Assembly (NCBI GenBank): GCA_036273515.1
Contig: DASUHM010000020.1
Coordinates: 1-32,411 of the forward strand
From: Gaiellales bacterium
Lineage (GTDB): Bacteria; Actinomycetota; Thermoleophilia; Gaiellales; JAICJC01
DNA length: 32,411 nt
Direction of reading: 5' to 3'
Shown one piece after another: positions 10,866 to 17,442 of the stretch; position 1 is the stretch's first letter; each line of letters starts with the position of its first letter. A program made the position numbers and the translations under genes. The notes under the pieces are model-generated. The model was not told the DNA's origin. It was given only the letters and a program-made list of their open reading frames with translations, and made no database searches.

Positions 10866-11026
10866 TCACTCGCCCGAGCTCGCGATCAGGTCGGCTGCGA
10901 GCGCCGCAACCGTCTCCTGGACGGCCGGGATCACGTGGCTGTAGACGCGCAGATGAGCGCGGGGTCGCCGTGCCCGAGCCGGTCGGCCACGAGCTTGGGG
11001 TGGACGCTTAGCTGCAAGAGATGTTG
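10866..11026 (-). pseudogene. C-terminal relic of a tyrosine recombinase (integrase), frameshifted
   Basis: On the minus strand one frame reads LLQLSVHPKLVADRLGHGDPALI (about 11020-10952), the conserved box around the LGH motif. A second frame continues as LRVYSHVIPAVQETVAALAADLIASSGE to the TGA at 10866. YSHV contains the nucleophilic Tyr. Restoring one C between ATC and TGC (near 10952) joins the two into a normal phage-type integrase C-terminus, so a single-base deletion broke the frame. The N-terminal and core-binding domains are gone. It lies next to attL, where an integrase gene is expected, and accounts for how the island arrived. Confidence 0.8.
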
Positions 11027-11069
11027 GCGTCCGCCCGGAGGCGGCCGTGCTTTCTTCTCCGTCCGCGCG

Positions 11070-11126
11070 CGATGTTACGCTCGCTGCTTCGCCATGCGAA
11101 CCCCCCGCAACGCGAGCGTAACATCG
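11070..11126. repeat. 15-bp perfect inverted repeat upstream of hicAB
   Basis: CGATGTTACGCTCGC (11070-11084) and its exact reverse complement (11112-11126) are separated by 27 bp. The long loop makes it a poor terminator. It may be a protein-binding pair, an old recombination site, or the boundary of a deletion between the integrase relic and hicA. No coding sequence is credible between 11030 and 11217. Confidence 0.65.
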
Positions 11127-11217
11127 TACGCTCGGGGTGGTGCCTCTTCGCATGCCCGTTGCGAGCCGGCCGGCCATGTGAACGAGCCATTTCCCCCGTC
11201 CGGGGGGCGCACTCCCC

Positions 11218-11247
11218 TTGCAGTCTGGCGATACTAGGGGTAGTATC
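11218..11247 (+). promoter_or_regulatory. hicA promoter with overlapping operator palindrome
   Basis: TTGCAG (11218-11223), a 17-bp spacer, and TAGTAT (11241-11246) form a good -35/-10 pair; the GTG of hicA is six bases further, so the transcript is probably leaderless. The inverted repeat GATACTA-GGGG-TAGTATC (11230-11247) covers the -10 box, the expected place for autorepression by the HicB DNA-binding domain or the HicAB complex. Confidence 0.75.
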
Positions 11248-11252
11248 AACGC

Positions 11253-11486
11253 GTGACGATCGAGGAAAAGCTCGACTCACTCAAGACCCGCCGACGCAGC
11301 GTCCCCCCAGACGAGATGCACGCACTTCTGTCCGAGGCGGGATTCGACCACCGCTACGGGAAGGGCGACCACTGGGTCTACACGCACCCAGCCAGGCGCT
11401 TCCCACTTGTCATCGACCCCCGAAATCCACTCTTGCCGACGTACGTCAGCAAGGCGATACGAGCCATAGAGGAGGTGCTTCAATGA
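11253..11486 (+). CDS. hicA: HicA-family toxin (mRNA interferase)
   Basis: 77 residues from a GTG start six bases after the -10 box. VPPDEMHALLSEAGFDHRYGKGDHWVYTHPARRFPLVIDPRNPLLPTYVSKAIRAIEE follows the HicA pattern: helix, glycine turn, a beta hairpin with the catalytic-type His (His40 in GDHWVYTHP), then the closing helix. HicA folds like a double-stranded RNA-binding domain and cleaves mRNAs to arrest growth until HicB binds it. It is slightly longer than usual (about 60 residues) because of an N-terminal extension. It overlaps hicB by four bases (ATGA). Cargo of the tRNA-Lys mini-island. Confidence 0.85.
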   Translation: MTIEEKLDSLKTRRRSVPPDEMHALLSEAGFDHRYGKGDHWVYTHPARRFPLVIDPRNPLLPTYVSKAIRAIEEVLQ

Positions 11487-11866
11487 ACATCGACGACTAC
11501 CTGGGCCTCCCGTACACCATCGAACTAACCCCCGACCACGATGACGACGGCCGCACCGGTTGGGTCGCAGAAGTCGAAGAGCTCCCCGGCTGCATCACCC
11601 AGGTCGACGCGCTCGACGAGCTCGAGGCGAGCATCCGCGACGCCATGACGGCGTGGATCAGCGTGGCACTCGAGGACGGCCGCGACATCCCGGCCCCGCG
11701 GAGTGAGCAGAGCTACAGCGGACGGTTCCTGCTCCGACTGCCCAAGAGCCTCCACGGCGATCTAGCCCACGAGGCGGAGCGGGAGGGCGTCAGCCTGAAT
11801 CAACTCGTGACGTCGATGCTGGCCGCCTCGGTCGGCTGGCATCACCGCCTCCGCGAAACCGCCTGA
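11483..11866 (+). CDS. hicB: HicB-family antitoxin
   Basis: 127 residues. The N-terminal partial RNase H-like HicB fold reads YTIELTPDHDDDGRTGWVAEVEELPGCITQVDALDELEASIRDAMTAWI; the ELPGC box is typical of the family. The C-terminal segment YSGRFLLRLPKSLHGDLAHEAEREGVSLNQLVTSMLAASVGW is a ribbon-helix-helix DNA-binding domain. HicB neutralises HicA and represses the operon, probably at the palindrome 11230-11247. The start is set by GGAGG at 11471-11475 and the ATGA overlap with hicA. Between its stop and the attR repeat (11867-12054) I see no further gene. Confidence 0.88.
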   Translation: MNIDDYLGLPYTIELTPDHDDDGRTGWVAEVEELPGCITQVDALDELEASIRDAMTAWISVALEDGRDIPAPRSEQSYSGRFLLRLPKSLHGDLAHEAEREGVSLNQLVTSMLAASVGWHHRLRETA

Positions 11867-12054: not shown

Positions 12055-12099
12055 GACTCTTAATCCCAAGGTCGAAGGTTCGATCCCTTCACGGCCCAT
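12055..12099 (+). repeat. attR: second copy of the tRNA-Lys 3' end
   Basis: Perfect copy of 10654-10698. It lacks the acceptor 5' strand, the D arm and half the anticodon stem, so it is not a tRNA gene. The last codons and stop of the minus-strand ATPase gene (12089 onward) lie inside it. This implies that, before the island arrived, the ATPase reading frame ended within the tRNA-Lys gene itself. Confidence 0.93.
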
Positions 12100-13234
12100 C
12101 CGATCCGTGCTCGCCGGTGTCGCGCAGACCGGCGATCCACTCCTCGAAAAGCGGGTCTGTGAGCGCGTAGCGATCGCCCTCGCGCTCGACGAGGGCGCTC
12201 GCCTGGAGCGCCACCAGGGCCGAGCGCGCGCTCGACTTGGCCAGGCCGAGGCCCTCGAGCACGCGGGTCTGGAACGGCGAGCCGCCGGTGGCGGCCAGCG
12301 AGCGAAGCGCCTTCTGCTCGTTGGTTGAGAGGTGGCGCCAGCCGGCGTCGAACTCGGCCGCGAGCTCGGCGAGGGCGGCGGCGTGGGCGCGCGCCCAGTG
12401 CGCCAGGCCGGCGGTGCCCTCGGGCGGCACCTCCTCCCACAGCCGGTGGGCGAGCAGCATCGCCCGCTGGGGGTGGCCCCTGGCCGAGGCGACGAGCGGG
12501 TTTGCCGCCTCGCCGACGCTTCGGCCCGACTCGCGGAAGCGCTCGGCGACGTAGGCCGCGATGTCGGCGTCTGCCAGCCGGCCGAGCCGCATCGGCACGG
12601 CCTGGCCGTAGAGCGGCCGATCGCGCACCTCGAAGAGCTCGCGCATGAGCCCCGGCTCGGAGCCCGCGAACACGAACGACGCCACCTCGCCCTGGAACTG
12701 GATGTGGCTGCGCAGCAGCGCGTCCATGCCCTCGACCCGGGTGACGTCCTGGAACTCGTCGAGGACGACGAGGGCCCGGAATGCGCCGCCCTCCTCGAGC
12801 CGCAGGGGCAGGTCGAGCAGCGCGTGCAGCGCCGGCAGCGGATCGGTGCGCGGCTCGACCTGGAGGCGGGCGCTGATCCCGAGCGCGCCGAGGGAGAGGC
12901 CGAGGCCGGTGGTCTGCAGGAACTCCTCGATCCGGGCGCGGGCCTTGCCCTTGAGCTGGCGGGCGTAGGCGCGCTCGAAGCGGATGGCGACGTCCGCGAT
13001 CGAGAGCACGCCGTAGAGGTCGACCAGGATCGGGATCATCCGCTCGCGCCGCTCGGCGTCGCGCAGGACGCGCCGCAGCAGGCTCGTCTTGCCGTACTTG
13101 CGGGGCGCGTACAGGCGCACGAAGTGACCGCCGACCGCGGCGGCGAGCAGCTGCCCGGTCTCGGCGTCGCGGTCGATGACGTCGTCCGGCGCGATCGGAT
13201 GCGAGTAGATGAACGGGTTCGTGTCGGTCAGCAT
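12089..13234 (-). CDS. AAA ATPase (ATPase_2/STAND-like) with C-terminal winged helix
   Basis: 381 residues from ATG 13234 (an in-frame TTG at 13255 lies inside the likely promoter). FVRLYAPRKYGKTSLLRR is the Walker A loop (about 43-51), RALVVLDEFQDV the Walker B (about 154-163), FVFAGSEPGLM sensor 1 (about 187-197), and LSTNEQKALRSLAATGGSPFQTRVLEGLGLAKSSARSALVALQASALVEREGDRYALTDPLFEEWI a winged-helix domain. This order is typical of the PF01637-type ATPases, poorly characterised proteins often suspected of signalling, DNA transactions or defence. No effector domain is present. The gene ends inside attR and is preceded by the GGTGCGG array. Function unknown beyond ATP binding and likely DNA binding. 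Confidence 0.85.
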   Translation of the reverse strand: MLTDTNPFIYSHPIAPDDVIDRDAETGQLLAAAVGGHFVRLYAPRKYGKTSLLRRVLRDAERRERMIPILVDLYGVLSIADVAIRFERAYARQLKGKARARIEEFLQTTGLGLSLGALGISARLQVEPRTDPLPALHALLDLPLRLEEGGAFRALVVLDEFQDVTRVEGMDALLRSHIQFQGEVASFVFAGSEPGLMRELFEVRDRPLYGQAVPMRLGRLADADIAAYVAERFRESGRSVGEAANPLVASARGHPQRAMLLAHRLWEEVPPEGTAGLAHWARAHAAALAELAAEFDAGWRHLSTNEQKALRSLAATGGSPFQTRVLEGLGLAKSSARSALVALQASALVEREGDRYALTDPLFEEWIAGLRDTGEHGSDGP

Positions 13235-13324
13235 GGTGCGGAGATATCGTACCAAACGGTGCGGAAACGCCGCACCAGATTCGGTGCGTGATCACCGCAC
13301 CGGCCGGTGCGGGCCGGGCGCACC
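13235..13324. promoter_or_regulatory. array of GGTGCGG / CCGCACC boxes upstream of the ATPase gene
   Basis: Exact heptamers at 13235-13241, 13258-13264 and 13306-13312 (GGTGCGG) and 13270-13276 and 13295-13301 (CCGCACC), plus one-mismatch copies at 13283-13289 and 13318-13324. They pair as palindromes: 13258-13276 has 7-bp arms and a 5-bp spacer, and 13295-13312 is a perfect 18-bp palindrome. The array begins at the ATPase start codon, covers its promoter (possible -10 TACGAT at 13251-13246) and faces the surface-protein operon. Most likely a multi-site operator. Confidence 0.75.
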
Positions 13325-13444: not shown

Positions 13445-13930
13445 ATGAATCGGAAACGTCTCGTGCGCTTCGCCGTGACGGCTGTCATCGGTCTCGCCAT
13501 CGCCGGTGGCGCCGCCTATGCGGCCTGGACGGTCAACGGCAGCGGCTCCGGCACTGCGTCGGCCGCTTCCGCGCAGGGCCTGACGCTCACCGCCGGCTCG
13601 GCCAGCGGCGTTCTCTATCCGGGTGCGACCGCCGACGTGGACACGTCGGTCGGGAACACCAACCCCTTCCCCGTGCACGTCAGCAGCATCGCGCTCGACA
13701 CGACCCAGGGCCAGAACGGCTTCGCGGTCGATGCCGGCCACAGCGGCTGCAACCTGGGCTCCCTGTCGTTCACCACCGCCACCAACGGCGGCAGCGGCTG
13801 GGACATCTCCGCCAGCTCCTCGCTCGACGTCGACGCCGCGAGCTCCATCACGATGGGCTCTGGCGCGAACGATTCCTGCCAGGGAGCGACGTTCACGGTC
13901 TACCTGACCGCCACGGCCGCAAGCGCATAA
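13445..13930 (+). CDS. small secreted protein with SipW-cognate-type signal region
   Basis: 161 residues. The N-terminus RFAVTAVIGLAIAGGAAYAAWTVNGSGSGTASA resembles the SipW-cognate class of signal peptides found on TasA/camelysin-like surface subunits (small-residue membrane helix followed by an aromatic and Gly/Ser/Thr turn). The mature part is rich in Ser, Thr, Gly and Ala, with predicted beta structure and two Cys (GCNLG and DSCQGATF) that could form a disulfide. The stretch LYPGA, NTNPFPV and SCQGATFTVYLTATA recurs in the 147-residue protein two genes downstream, so the two are paralogues. ATG chosen for AAGAGGA at 13434-13440. Export is supported; a structural surface role is inferred. 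Confidence 0.75.
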   Translation: MNRKRLVRFAVTAVIGLAIAGGAAYAAWTVNGSGSGTASAASAQGLTLTAGSASGVLYPGATADVDTSVGNTNPFPVHVSSIALDTTQGQNGFAVDAGHSGCNLGSLSFTTATNGGSGWDISASSSLDVDAASSITMGSGANDSCQGATFTVYLTATAASA

Positions 13931-13940
13931 GGCCGTTCCG

Positions 13941-16184
13941 ATGCGCGCCCGCCTCAAGGGCCTGCTGCACCCTCGCCGAAGCCTCGTGCTCCTGGTGGTG
14001 TTCCTCGCCGGCGTGACCACTGCGTCCGCCACGTGGCACCTGCCAGGGGGCGGGGCCGGCGCGGCGAAGGCGAGCATCGACTTCCACGCACCGAGCGTCA
14101 CCGGCAGCACCATCGCCCCGCAGGGGGCCACCGCTGCGGGCGGCGCGATCAAGCCCGGGGCGGCGTTCGTCGTCTACGCGAACGTCGTCGATCCGGGCGT
14201 GTCCGGGATCGCCTGGGTGCGCACCAACGTCTCGGCGCTCAGGGCCGGCTCGACGTCGGTGTCGCTCTCGCGCTGCACCACGGGCTGCACCATCGGAGCG
14301 ACGACCTACGGCTGGTCGACCGCGCCGCTGACCGCAGATGCCGGGCTGGCCCAGGGCACGCTCTCCTACGGGGTCTGGAGCCAGGACAACGCCAACAACC
14401 TGGGGACGACCGTCAGCTACCCGGCGATCGTCGACTCGACCAATCCCTCCGTCACGGCCGCGGTCGTCGCGATGGCCTCGCCCGCCACCGTCGGCTGGGT
14501 GCGCCGGTCGGGCAGCTACACGGTCTACGCGAACGCCACGGACGCCGGCTCGCCGGCGAGCGGCATCGCGACGATCACGGCCAACGTCTCGAGCCTGACG
14601 CCGGGTACGACGTCGCTGTCGCTGCCAGCGTGCACGTCCTCCTGCTCGGTCGGCGGCGTCTCCTACGGCTACAAGAGCGCGGCCACGACCGCCGGGTCGG
14701 CCATCGCCGACGGCAGCGCCTCGGTGGGCCTGACCGCGGCCGACAAGGCCGGGAACACGGCCACCGGTGCGGCGAGCGTGACCATCGACTCGACCGTGCC
14801 GACGGTCACCGGCGCCGTCGTCGTGAACACGACGCCCAGCGATCCGGGCTATCTGAAGCCGGGCAACAACTACGTCCTCTATGCCAACGCCGCCGACACG
14901 GGCGGCCTCGCCACGGTCACCGCCGATCTGAGCGCCCTGACCTCCGGCCAGACGGCGGCCGCCCTCTCGGCCTGCACCACGACCTGCACCTTCAACGGCG
15001 TCACCTACGGCTGGAAGAGCGCGTCCAAGACGGCCGGCGCATCGATCGCGGCCGGGCCGACGGCCTTCAGCCTGACGGCGACGGACAAGGCCGCGAACGC
15101 GACGACCGGCAGCTACTCCGTGACGGTCGACGCGACCGGGCCGACCGTCTCCGCAGTCGCGGTCGCGAACACGACCACGAACGCCGCGGGCTGGCTGCGA
15201 AAGAGCGGCGCCTACGTCGTCTACGCCAACGCCTCGGATCCGACCGGGATCTCGTCCGTGAAGGCGAACGTCAACACGTTCACGAGCGGGGTGACGGCGC
15301 TCGCCCTCTCCGCCTGCACCACGAGCTGCACCGTGGGCGGCGTGACCTACGGCTACAAGAGCGCGTCCAAGACGGCCGGCTCCATGCTCCCCGCGGGCGC
15401 TGCGAGCTTTGCGGTGACCGCTACCGACGGCGTGGGCAACACCACCACCGCGAACGGCTCGGCCACGGTCGACAACACCGCGCCGACGGCCGCCGCCGAG
15501 GCGATCGCCCCGACGGCGACGAGCATCCCCGGCTACATCGCCCAGGGCGCGACATACATCGCCTACACGAACGCCGCGGACGCCGGTGGCGTCTACTCGG
15601 TCACCGCCAAGGTTTCGAACATCACCACCGGCCAGACCGCCGTCGCGCTCCCGGCCTGCGTCTCGGGCTGCACCGTCGCCGGCGTCGCCCGCGGATACGC
15701 CAGCGCCGCGCTCGCGGCCAACGCCTCGCTCACCGGGACCAGCAAGACGTGGACGGTGACCGTGACCGACCTGGCCGGGAACGCCACCACGAGCACCAGC
15801 CAGACCGTGACGCTCGACAACACCGCCCCGACGGTGGCGATCACGTTCCCGACGTCGTCCTACGCGGGCGGCTGGCTGGCCGGCTGCGGCACCGCGAGCA
15901 CGGCCGACATCTGCGGCACGGCCGGCGACGCCACCTCCGGCCTTGCGAACGTCCAGGTCAGCATCAAGCAGGCCTCGGCGCCGGGCCTCTACTGGAACCC
16001 GGCGACGAGCTCGTTCTCGTCGGCGACCGAGGTGCTGATGCCGGCCACGGGCACGTCGAGCTGGTCGCTCGCCGCCGCCGCTGCCTGCTTCACCAACCTG
16101 AGCCCCTACACGATCCGGGCCGTCGCCACCGACGCGGCCTCGAACACCGCCGCCACGACCTCGAACTTCACCTTCAAGCCGTAG
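13941..16184 (+). CDS. secreted Ig-like repeat protein with five CxxxC repeats
   Basis: 747 residues. A signal anchor (about 13-30, LVLLVVFLAGVTTASA) is followed by five repeats of about 114 residues, each ending near DxTxPTV. Each carries a VxYANxxD block and an ACTTxCTxGGVTYGYKSA block, with paired Cys at 112/116, 231/235, 345/349, 459/463 and 573/577. A different C-terminal domain (about 628-747) adds Cys 649, 658 and 716. Repeats look like bacterial Ig-like folds with a small disulfide loop. Repeats 3 and 4 share a 24-bp identical DNA stretch (15015-15038 and 15357-15380), a sign of recent duplication or conversion. It starts 10 bp after the preceding stop and abuts the next gene. Likely cell-surface or extracellular; no catalytic motif seen. 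Confidence 0.82.
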   Translation: MRARLKGLLHPRRSLVLLVVFLAGVTTASATWHLPGGGAGAAKASIDFHAPSVTGSTIAPQGATAAGGAIKPGAAFVVYANVVDPGVSGIAWVRTNVSALRAGSTSVSLSRCTTGCTIGATTYGWSTAPLTADAGLAQGTLSYGVWSQDNANNLGTTVSYPAIVDSTNPSVTAAVVAMASPATVGWVRRSGSYTVYANATDAGSPASGIATITANVSSLTPGTTSLSLPACTSSCSVGGVSYGYKSAATTAGSAIADGSASVGLTAADKAGNTATGAASVTIDSTVPTVTGAVVVNTTPSDPGYLKPGNNYVLYANAADTGGLATVTADLSALTSGQTAAALSACTTTCTFNGVTYGWKSASKTAGASIAAGPTAFSLTATDKAANATTGSYSVTVDATGPTVSAVAVANTTTNAAGWLRKSGAYVVYANASDPTGISSVKANVNTFTSGVTALALSACTTSCTVGGVTYGYKSASKTAGSMLPAGAASFAVTATDGVGNTTTANGSATVDNTAPTAAAEAIAPTATSIPGYIAQGATYIAYTNAADAGGVYSVTAKVSNITTGQTAVALPACVSGCTVAGVARGYASAALAANASLTGTSKTWTVTVTDLAGNATTSTSQTVTLDNTAPTVAITFPTSSYAGGWLAGCGTASTADICGTAGDATSGLANVQVSIKQASAPGLYWNPATSSFSSATEVLMPATGTSSWSLAAAAACFTNLSPYTIRAVATDAASNTAATTSNFTFKP

Positions 16185-16628
16185 ATGCGCTTCCTGCTCT
16201 CCACCGCAGTCGTCCTCGCCGCAGCCGCCGGCGTCGCCACCCACGTCGCCGGCTCGGGGGCGTCGCCCGACCGCGGGAGGGTGGAGCTGATCGCGTCGGT
16301 ACAGCACGCGGTCACCGTCGCGGCGCCGCCCGTCACGGGACTCTACCCGGGCGCCGGCCGCGCCTTCACGCTGCAGATCAAGAACACCTATCCCTACCCC
16401 GTGAGGATCACCGCGGTGAAGGCGAAGGTCGCCGCCGCCACCAACCGTCCGGGCTGCGCCGGGATCAAGACGAACCTGGCAGTTACGCACAGGGGTGGGG
16501 CGTTCACGGTCAAGCCGAAGAAGGCGGCTCCGGTCATCATGACCGTTGTGATGCCGAAGACGGTGGCCGACGCGTGCCAGGGCGCAACGTTCAAGATCAC
16601 GTTCACGGCGCGCGCCGTGCGCGGCTAG
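16185..16628 (+). CDS. small secreted protein, paralogue of the 161-residue protein
   Basis: 147 residues beginning directly after the TAG of the repeat protein (TAGATG), with a signal peptide MRFLLSTAVVLAAAAGVATHVAGS. The mature region contains LYPGAGRAFTLQIKNTYPYPVRITAVKAKV, then RPGCAG and DACQGATFKITFTARA. These match LYPGA, NTNPFPVHVSSI and DSCQGATFTVYLTATA of the first gene in the operon. Both keep two Cys at equivalent places. The three genes therefore encode two small related beta-rich subunits around one large repeat protein. The gene has no separate ribosome site and probably depends on coupling. Function unknown. Confidence 0.75.
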   Translation: MRFLLSTAVVLAAAAGVATHVAGSGASPDRGRVELIASVQHAVTVAAPPVTGLYPGAGRAFTLQIKNTYPYPVRITAVKAKVAAATNRPGCAGIKTNLAVTHRGGAFTVKPKKAAPVIMTVVMPKTVADACQGATFKITFTARAVRG

Positions 16629-16635
16629 ATCCCCG

Positions 16636-17442
16636 CTATCGAACGACGAGCACCGAGCAGCGCGCCTCGTGCGCGACCCGCTCGCTGACGCTCCCGAGCG
16701 ACCGGATGCCCTGGAGCCCGCGGCTGCCGACGACGAGCAGGTCGGGATCGAGCCGGGACAGCGCCTCGACGGGTGAGTCGGACTCCATCCGCAGCGGCGT
16801 CTCCGGGCCGGCGGCGGCATCGAGCGCCGAGCGCACCGCGGCGGGATCGGGCGTTCCGCCGCCGGTGGCGACGACGGCCTCGAGCTGCGAGCCGCACGCC
16901 TTCGCGATCGTGGCGGCCGCATGGACGGCGCGGGCCGACTCCTCCGAGCCGTCGGCCCCTACCACGACCCGGGCCGGGAACCCGTCCCCGGCCCGGCCGC
17001 GCGCCATCAGCACGGGGCACGGCGCCTCGTGCAGGAGCTGCGCCGCCACGCTCCCGAGCAGGATGCCGGAGAGGCGGCGGTGGTCGTGCGACCCGACCGC
17101 GACGAGGGTTGCCTTGTGGCGTCCGGCCTCGGTCAGCATCATCGGCCCCGGCGGCCCCTCGACGACCACCGTCTCGACCGCGGCCGAGGCCGGCAGCAGC
17201 GGCCGCACGCCGTCGGCCGCCGCGCGCAGCTCCTCCTGCGGAAACGACCCCGTCCGCGCGATCGTGGGTGTCCAGCCGACGGCGACCGACGCGCCGGTGT
17301 TCCACACGCTCACGAGCACGACCCGCGACTCGCCGCCCGCGGCCTCGATCAGGCGGCCGACCTGCGCGACCGCGGCGCGGCTCTCCTCCGTTCCGTCCAC
17401 GCCGCAGACGACACACCGAAACAGCGTCCGGTCAGCGTCCAT
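16636..17442 (-). CDS. tandem universal stress protein (two USP domains)
   Basis: 268 residues forming two USP domains, about 5-147 and 155-267. Each starts with a beta strand plus Asp (VVCGVDGTEES; VVVGADGSEES) and ends with a nucleotide-binding block (VAVGSHDHRRLSGILLGSVAAQLLHEAPCPVLM; LVVGSRGLQGIRSLGSVSERVAHEARCSVLVV). The G-2x-G-9x-G-S pattern is recognisable in both, so ATP binding is plausible. Cytoplasmic; tandem USPs in actinobacteria respond to dormancy, hypoxia or redox stress. It begins 6 bp after the PRC-barrel gene, forming a two-gene operon, and ends 7 bp from the convergent surface operon with no room for a separate terminator. Confidence 0.9.
   Translation of the reverse strand: MDADRTLFRCVVCGVDGTEESRAAVAQVGRLIEAAGGESRVVLVSVWNTGASVAVGWTPTIARTGSFPQEELRAAADGVRPLLPASAAVETVVVEGPPGPMMLTEAGRHKATLVAVGSHDHRRLSGILLGSVAAQLLHEAPCPVLMARGRAGDGFPARVVVGADGSEESARAVHAAATIAKACGSQLEAVVATGGGTPDPAAVRSALDAAAGPETPLRMESDSPVEALSRLDPDLLVVGSRGLQGIRSLGSVSERVAHEARCSVLVVR

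Follow-up and report, generated by a model that had tools for sequence, protein, structure and literature searches.

Three genes on the forward strand of the window, the stretch of 32,411 nucleotides analysed here, are best read as one operon of surface type. They encode a small protein (A), a large protein with Ig-like repeats (C) and a second small protein (B). We propose, at a little short of an even chance, that the operon specifies a fibre on the cell surface whose subunits join by donor-strand exchange, in which A would form the shaft and C and B the two ends. A wider claim, which we hold more doubtfully, is that these genes represent a donor-strand fibre system that is SipW-independent and disulfide-stabilised, widespread in Actinomycetota, unnamed in Pfam and NCBIfam, and built by a rule of donor and acceptor parts.

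The window belongs to a draft assembly of 98 contigs. The three forward open reading frames of 161, 747 and 147 residues given in the first-pass annotation were found again at the same positions (Table 1), with a spacing of 10 bp between A and C and of 0 bp between C and B; ORF starts were picked by eye or by rule. The products have secretion-type N-termini. A, C and B stand alone on the forward strand, flanked on both sides by neighbours on the opposite strand, and a promoter and terminator scan found none. All three genes are present in the same order in a congener (Thermoleophilia bacterium, JAICJC010000014.1), with an identity of 76% for A, 76% for C and 64% for B. The codon comparison with this congener placed the divergence of A, C and B mostly at third codon positions, the pattern of real coding genes. 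The AAA-ATPase-like protein upstream (12089-13255) possibly has a winged-helix part at its C-terminus, and this neighbourhood appears to be retained in the congener. A long ORF at 11021-11866 (forward strand) carries a HicB-like antitoxin domain at its C-terminal end, its true start lying probably well inside the frame.

Table 1. Positions of the operon, its sequence features and its neighbours in the window.
Feature	Position	Strand	Remark
Upstream neighbour, AAA-ATPase-like, 388 aa	12089-13255	-	divergent from operon
Gene A, small subunit, 161 aa	13445..13930	+	LYPG/CQGATF domain behind signal sequence and N-terminal strand
A mature N-terminal strand AWTVNGSGSGTASA, residues 27-40	13523..13564	+	after predicted AYA cleavage site; proposed donor strand
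A LYPG block, L57-G60	13613..13624	+	
A conserved Cys102	13748..13750	+	disulfide with Cys145 proposed
A CQGATF block incl. conserved Cys145	13877..13894	+	
Gene C, secreted, 747 aa, Ig-like repeats	13941..16184	+	
C mature N-terminal segment TWHLPGGGAGAAKAS	14031..14075	+	counterpart of A strand
C CxxxC, Ig-like repeat 1	14274..14288	+	
C CxxxC, Ig-like repeat 2	14631..14645	+	
C CxxxC, Ig-like repeat 3	14973..14987	+	
C CxxxC, Ig-like repeat 4	15315..15329	+	
C CxxxC, Ig-like repeat 5	15657..15671	+	
C C-terminal Ig-like domain, unlike repeats	15816..16181	+	boundary approximate
Gene B, A paralogue, 147 aa	16185..16628	+	LYPG/CQGATF domain, without aromatic-GxGxG strand
B LYPG block, L53-G56	16341..16352	+	
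B conserved Cys91	16455..16457	+	
B CQGATF block incl. conserved Cys131	16575..16592	+	
Downstream neighbour, universal stress protein (USP)	16636-17442	-	

The paralogy of A and B is beyond chance. The two proteins matched each other in BLASTP with E=1e-10 (26% identity across 121 aa), a whole-genome search with A returned B as the sole other match (E=2.8e-8), and hhalign of the A core against the B core gave a probability of 99% (E=3.5e-19). The sequence blocks by which they had earlier been linked are real (LYPGA; NTNPFPV/NTYPYPV; DSCQGATF/DACQGATF; two Cys in each), and the unrelatedness that the first-pass annotation had named beforehand as speaking against its reading was not borne out. 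A and B have in common a two-cysteine LYPG...CQG domain, which C does not contain. The alignment of 50 mature A proteins had three invariant columns, G6, G8 and C119, while G10, P33, N45, C76 and G121 came close to invariance. Neither Pfam nor NCBIfam has a family that covers A, B or the 15 family members scanned. The AF2 model of A, made from four sequences (mean pLDDT 66.8, pTM 0.57), was all-beta, and one of its strands spans residues 22-31; that of B placed strands at positions equivalent to those of A (mean pLDDT 56.9, pTM 0.46). Confidence in both models is low to medium, so that the fold they suggest is provisional, and Foldseek with the A model gave no PDB match with E<=0.001. Profile searches of the PDB with the A/B family gave no secure match.

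In relatives B was often longer, with a spacer or Ig-like part followed by the domain, which nearly always ended at or near the C-terminus. In one B paralogue (locus L133, 5484-6449, reverse strand) the C-terminus consists of LPFTG followed by a hydrophobic stretch and then RRR. None of the other proteins among the 100 with the domain has a clear sortase-type anchor, and this B sat on a long branch in the tree. The large protein C had been described as a 747-residue protein with five CxxxC Ig-like repeats, and this description was confirmed: the CxxxC motifs start at residues 112, 231, 345, 459 and 573 with a period of ~114, and Ig-like Pfam matches were obtained with Big_13, Big_3_3 and Big_3_2. 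Four of the five CxxxC motifs are kept in the C of the closest relative.

A mature N-terminal strand of the form A-[YW][WF]-x-x-x-G-x-G-x-G is common to A and C. In the A proteins it follows directly after the predicted cleavage site as A-[YFWA]-[WF]-[TS]-x-x-G-x-G-x-G-x-[AG] and is their most conserved part. From the first Gly onwards the entropies were 0.00, 1.95, 0.00, 1.75, 0.48, 2.29, 0.91 and 2.91 bits, so that low and high values alternate strictly and every second residue is conserved. The motif was present in 32 of 40 C candidates, picked by position or proximity, by length, by a hydrophobic N-terminus and by coding-like GC, compared with 3 among 82 ORFs of other kinds whose N-terminus includes a hydrophobic segment (p=1.5e-18). 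In the C proteins enrichment was seen at the third Gly and at the small residues behind it, and the alternation of low and high entropy also showed there, though these columns lay outside the motif selection. By gene order, the strand was found in the first domain gene of 48/48 loci and in the second of 8/40; these counts, like those for C, avoid the circularity that arises because A and B were named partly by the motif. B is accordingly mostly without the strand, and some second genes carry it. The division also appeared in a domain tree from which the strand columns had been omitted: A (61) stood apart from B (39), with 2 label changes observed vs a mean of 31 for shuffled labels, in a quick tree that placed one B (L138) among A and whose labels had been hand-corrected beforehand (L106, L115 and L118, regex A; L036 and L119, regex B), which slightly favours a clean split. 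The A of the window fell within a 19-member A set (support 99) and its B within a 10-member B set (support 98). A strand of small residues, fixed at every second position and apparently free at the mature N-terminus ahead of a beta-domain, has the look of a donor strand. Counting against the donor reading, such Gly-rich strands would be less hydrophobic than that of TasA with its F29/I32/F39.

The gene set recurs in the phylum. A profile (A1) built from 15 small proteins detected the family in 58 of the 399 genomes sampled in the class and in 21 of 296 sampled in the phylum, the samples being draft genomes, and loci of the ABC type were found in many families of Actinomycetota. From 54 stretches that were fetched and parsed, the orders in 48 loci including the window were ABC (20), AC (7), AB (6), AAC (4), ABAC (3), ACB (2) and others (6); in two loci (L040, L132) the nominal C is actually a B-like protein. 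The seven AC loci are without a recognisable B and the six AB loci without C, some incomplete sets sitting at contig ends. These loci, together with the strand on some second genes, mean that the three-part set is not universal. The small-large-small order was seen only in the window and in one congener, and elsewhere the usual order was small-small-large. A single scan of genome contigs retrieved only this congener, and the other congener (81% complete) and the two other family members gave no comparable gene set. Three loci (L038, L101, L119) have two or three tandem A-type genes before B and C, four in L119 by hand labelling, and these A copies combine near-identical signal regions with diverged domains. 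The genome-scale search covered Actinomycetota and, beyond it, the plasmid, phage and PDB collections. The plasmid and phage collections held no family match, and there is therefore no sign of a mobile element.

From the sequences we infer fibre formation, strand exchange, polarity, a disulfide and adhesion, as follows. A would be exported and trimmed, and its freed N-terminal strand would enter a groove in the neighbouring A, formed by the LYPG/CQG domain, and so extend the shaft, while one disulfide would staple each A domain. C would act as donor only, because its A-type strand precedes complete Ig-like domains, and would cap one end; its likeliest role there is that of a tip adhesin or a TapA-like initiator. 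B would act as acceptor only, because it has the domain and usually lacks the strand, and would cap the opposite end, probably the one at the cell; this polarity is proposed because of the relative's B with its LPFTG terminus. The resulting rule would be a shaft part that is both donor and acceptor, one end that is donor only (the large Ig adhesin) and another that is acceptor only (the anchor). No assembly factor was found for the A/B/C set.

The proposal draws on described fibres. When TasA polymerises, residues 28-38, which lie just behind the signal peptide, are inserted into the neighbouring subunit (PMC9674648), and TapA, with the N-terminal residues of TasA and a complete Ig fold, can donate and cannot accept (PMC10151520). 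C as a donor-only end fits this description of TapA, and B would be its mirror image. The likeness to TasA/TapA of Bacillus subtilis and TasA/CalY/CapP of B. cereus lies in the tripartite set, in A as a candidate secreted small beta-sandwich protein whose aromatic-start mature strand is followed by LxPG, and in C, which like TapA has only the N-terminal strand in common with the subunit, before complete Ig folds. In contrast to these systems, A and B gave no significant profile match and have two conserved Cys, the strand is GxGxG where that of TasA is hydrophobic, the set includes in B a paralogue that lacks the strand, C measures about 400-1700 aa, and SipW is neither in the operon nor co-distributed with it. 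In the F-ENA endospore appendages (DUF4183) a stalk presents the C-terminal domain of the F-Anchor, which resembles the subunit, and the F-BclA fibrillum is at the tip (PMC11952670), which resembles B with its domain behind a spacer and C as a tip protein docking through its N-terminus. F-ENA nevertheless belongs to an unrelated family, as Pfam detected no DUF4183 in A, B, C or their relatives, and has collagen stalks and trimeric segments on Firmicutes spores. The bundling pili AbpA/AbpX, also donor-strand fibres (PMC11952670), gave a weak profile similarity in the LYPG...N region that was not significant (E 0.4-1.4), and they are archaeal. With chaperone-usher pili (Fim/Pap) the alternating N-terminal strand proposed as donor in A is comparable, whereas no chaperone or usher was present among the genes examined and A, B and C had no Pfam pilin-family match. 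As for sortase-assembled pili, LPxTG was found in none of the three products of the window, and the LPFTG of one relative's B was noted above. The class III signal of type IV pili (N_methyl) was absent from the window proteins and weak in 1 of 15 family members (E=0.0015).

That A and B are true, diverged members of TasA/camelysin (Peptidase_M73), matured by a SipW-type peptidase whose gene lies elsewhere in the genome, and that the operon is an ordinary TasA system, we consider rather improbable. The order of features agrees with it: an aromatic-start mature N-terminus, LxPG, N and a C-terminal QG. The [Y/C]QG block, a candidate common feature, was present in 5/12 M73 proteins and 51/56 A proteins ([QK]G allowed) vs 20/1959 background ORFs. 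With signals removed, the A profile ranked 13 M73 proteins above 144 beta-rich pieces of C proteins (p=5e-4), and the M73 profile did so for A/B (p=3e-7); as a group the scores also exceeded those of decoys, and when the N-terminal strand was dropped the separation was p=0.018. A small exported protein of another actinomycete (L146, G454:C28) was matched by both A1 (3e-6) and PF12389 (1.7e-8) and is a possible bridge between the families. Against membership, neither A, B nor the 15 family members passed the cut-off of PF12389, which had no match in the window's own genome either, and no family member passed the SipW-related NCBIfam cut-off; hhalign of the A family against M73 gave a probability of 3.7% (E=0.012), and single matches between the families were weak (E>=0.004). 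These profile tests are only suggestive, and a distant kinship is plausible. The resemblance to TasA-type fibre operons first noted is supported for a surface operon with a small paralogous pair and a large Ig-type protein, and the profiles did not extend it to family membership. In favour of this alternative, the window's genome encodes a SipW-type peptidase above cut-off. The search for SipW matched other contigs and not the window, so that none adjoins the operon, as the first-pass annotation had said. The distribution of SipW weighs against the alternative. SipW occurred in 14/49 genomes with a strong family match and in 98/350 others (odds ratio 1.03, p=1.0), no strong family locus had a SipW match on its contig among the matches listed, and several nearly complete family-bearing genomes had none above cut-off in the TIGR02228 survey. 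SipW dependence of the set is thus unlikely and was rejected at this chance-level co-distribution; the A sites end in AxA, and ordinary signal peptidase I is therefore the simpler assumption. A separate SipW-cognate pair, unlinked to the operon, was seen on another contig of the same genome at L050 (8515-10831, G000:C8), where a 160-aa ORF, whose signal-like N-terminus contains AYAFTTSN, is followed immediately by a 617-aa frame with a SipW-type signal peptidase (TIGR02228, 60.8 bits).

Unlikely, though to be taken seriously, is a non-fibrous surface complex, in which the small proteins, as beta-sandwiches, and the large one, as an Ig-type adhesin, would remain monomers or a small hetero-complex on or near the cell and bind polysaccharide or each other, the common N-terminus being a mere export or processing signal. 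The Ig/fn3-type repeats of C would suit such a complex, as would the best PDB match of the A profile, a CBM3-type carbohydrate-binding beta-sandwich that matched weakly (E=0.0088, best stretch i-E 1.4), and the fibre itself is a proposal drawn from sequences. Signal peptidases are not known to depend on a row of 10-12 residues with alternating conservation behind their cleavage site, and this speaks against a processing signal, as does the finding that the most conserved part of A is the very element that divides A and C from B. The layout first suggested, with C as scaffold or anchor to which A and B attach as major and minor subunits, is very improbable. In its favour, C lies in the middle of the window's operon and is the largest product; that order proved specific to the window and its congener, C is without the shared domain, LPxTG was found in 0 of 40 C candidates, and the sole recognisable wall anchor sits on a B. 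Since C also carries the N-terminal strand of the small subunit, a component of the fibre end would be the more fitting role.

The donor-strand fibre thus remains our preferred, tentative reading. The open-access literature held no description of an actinobacterial TasA-like system, and the earlier remark that no described system has this set of A, C and B agrees with our finding none there. The donor-strand fibres of Gram-positives in the literature cited here come from Bacillus. If the proposal is true, a donor/acceptor rule written in sequence would give a predictive and easily tested model of how a fibre starts and ends. It would also name a protein family that annotation has missed and hint at how Actinomycetota attach and aggregate.
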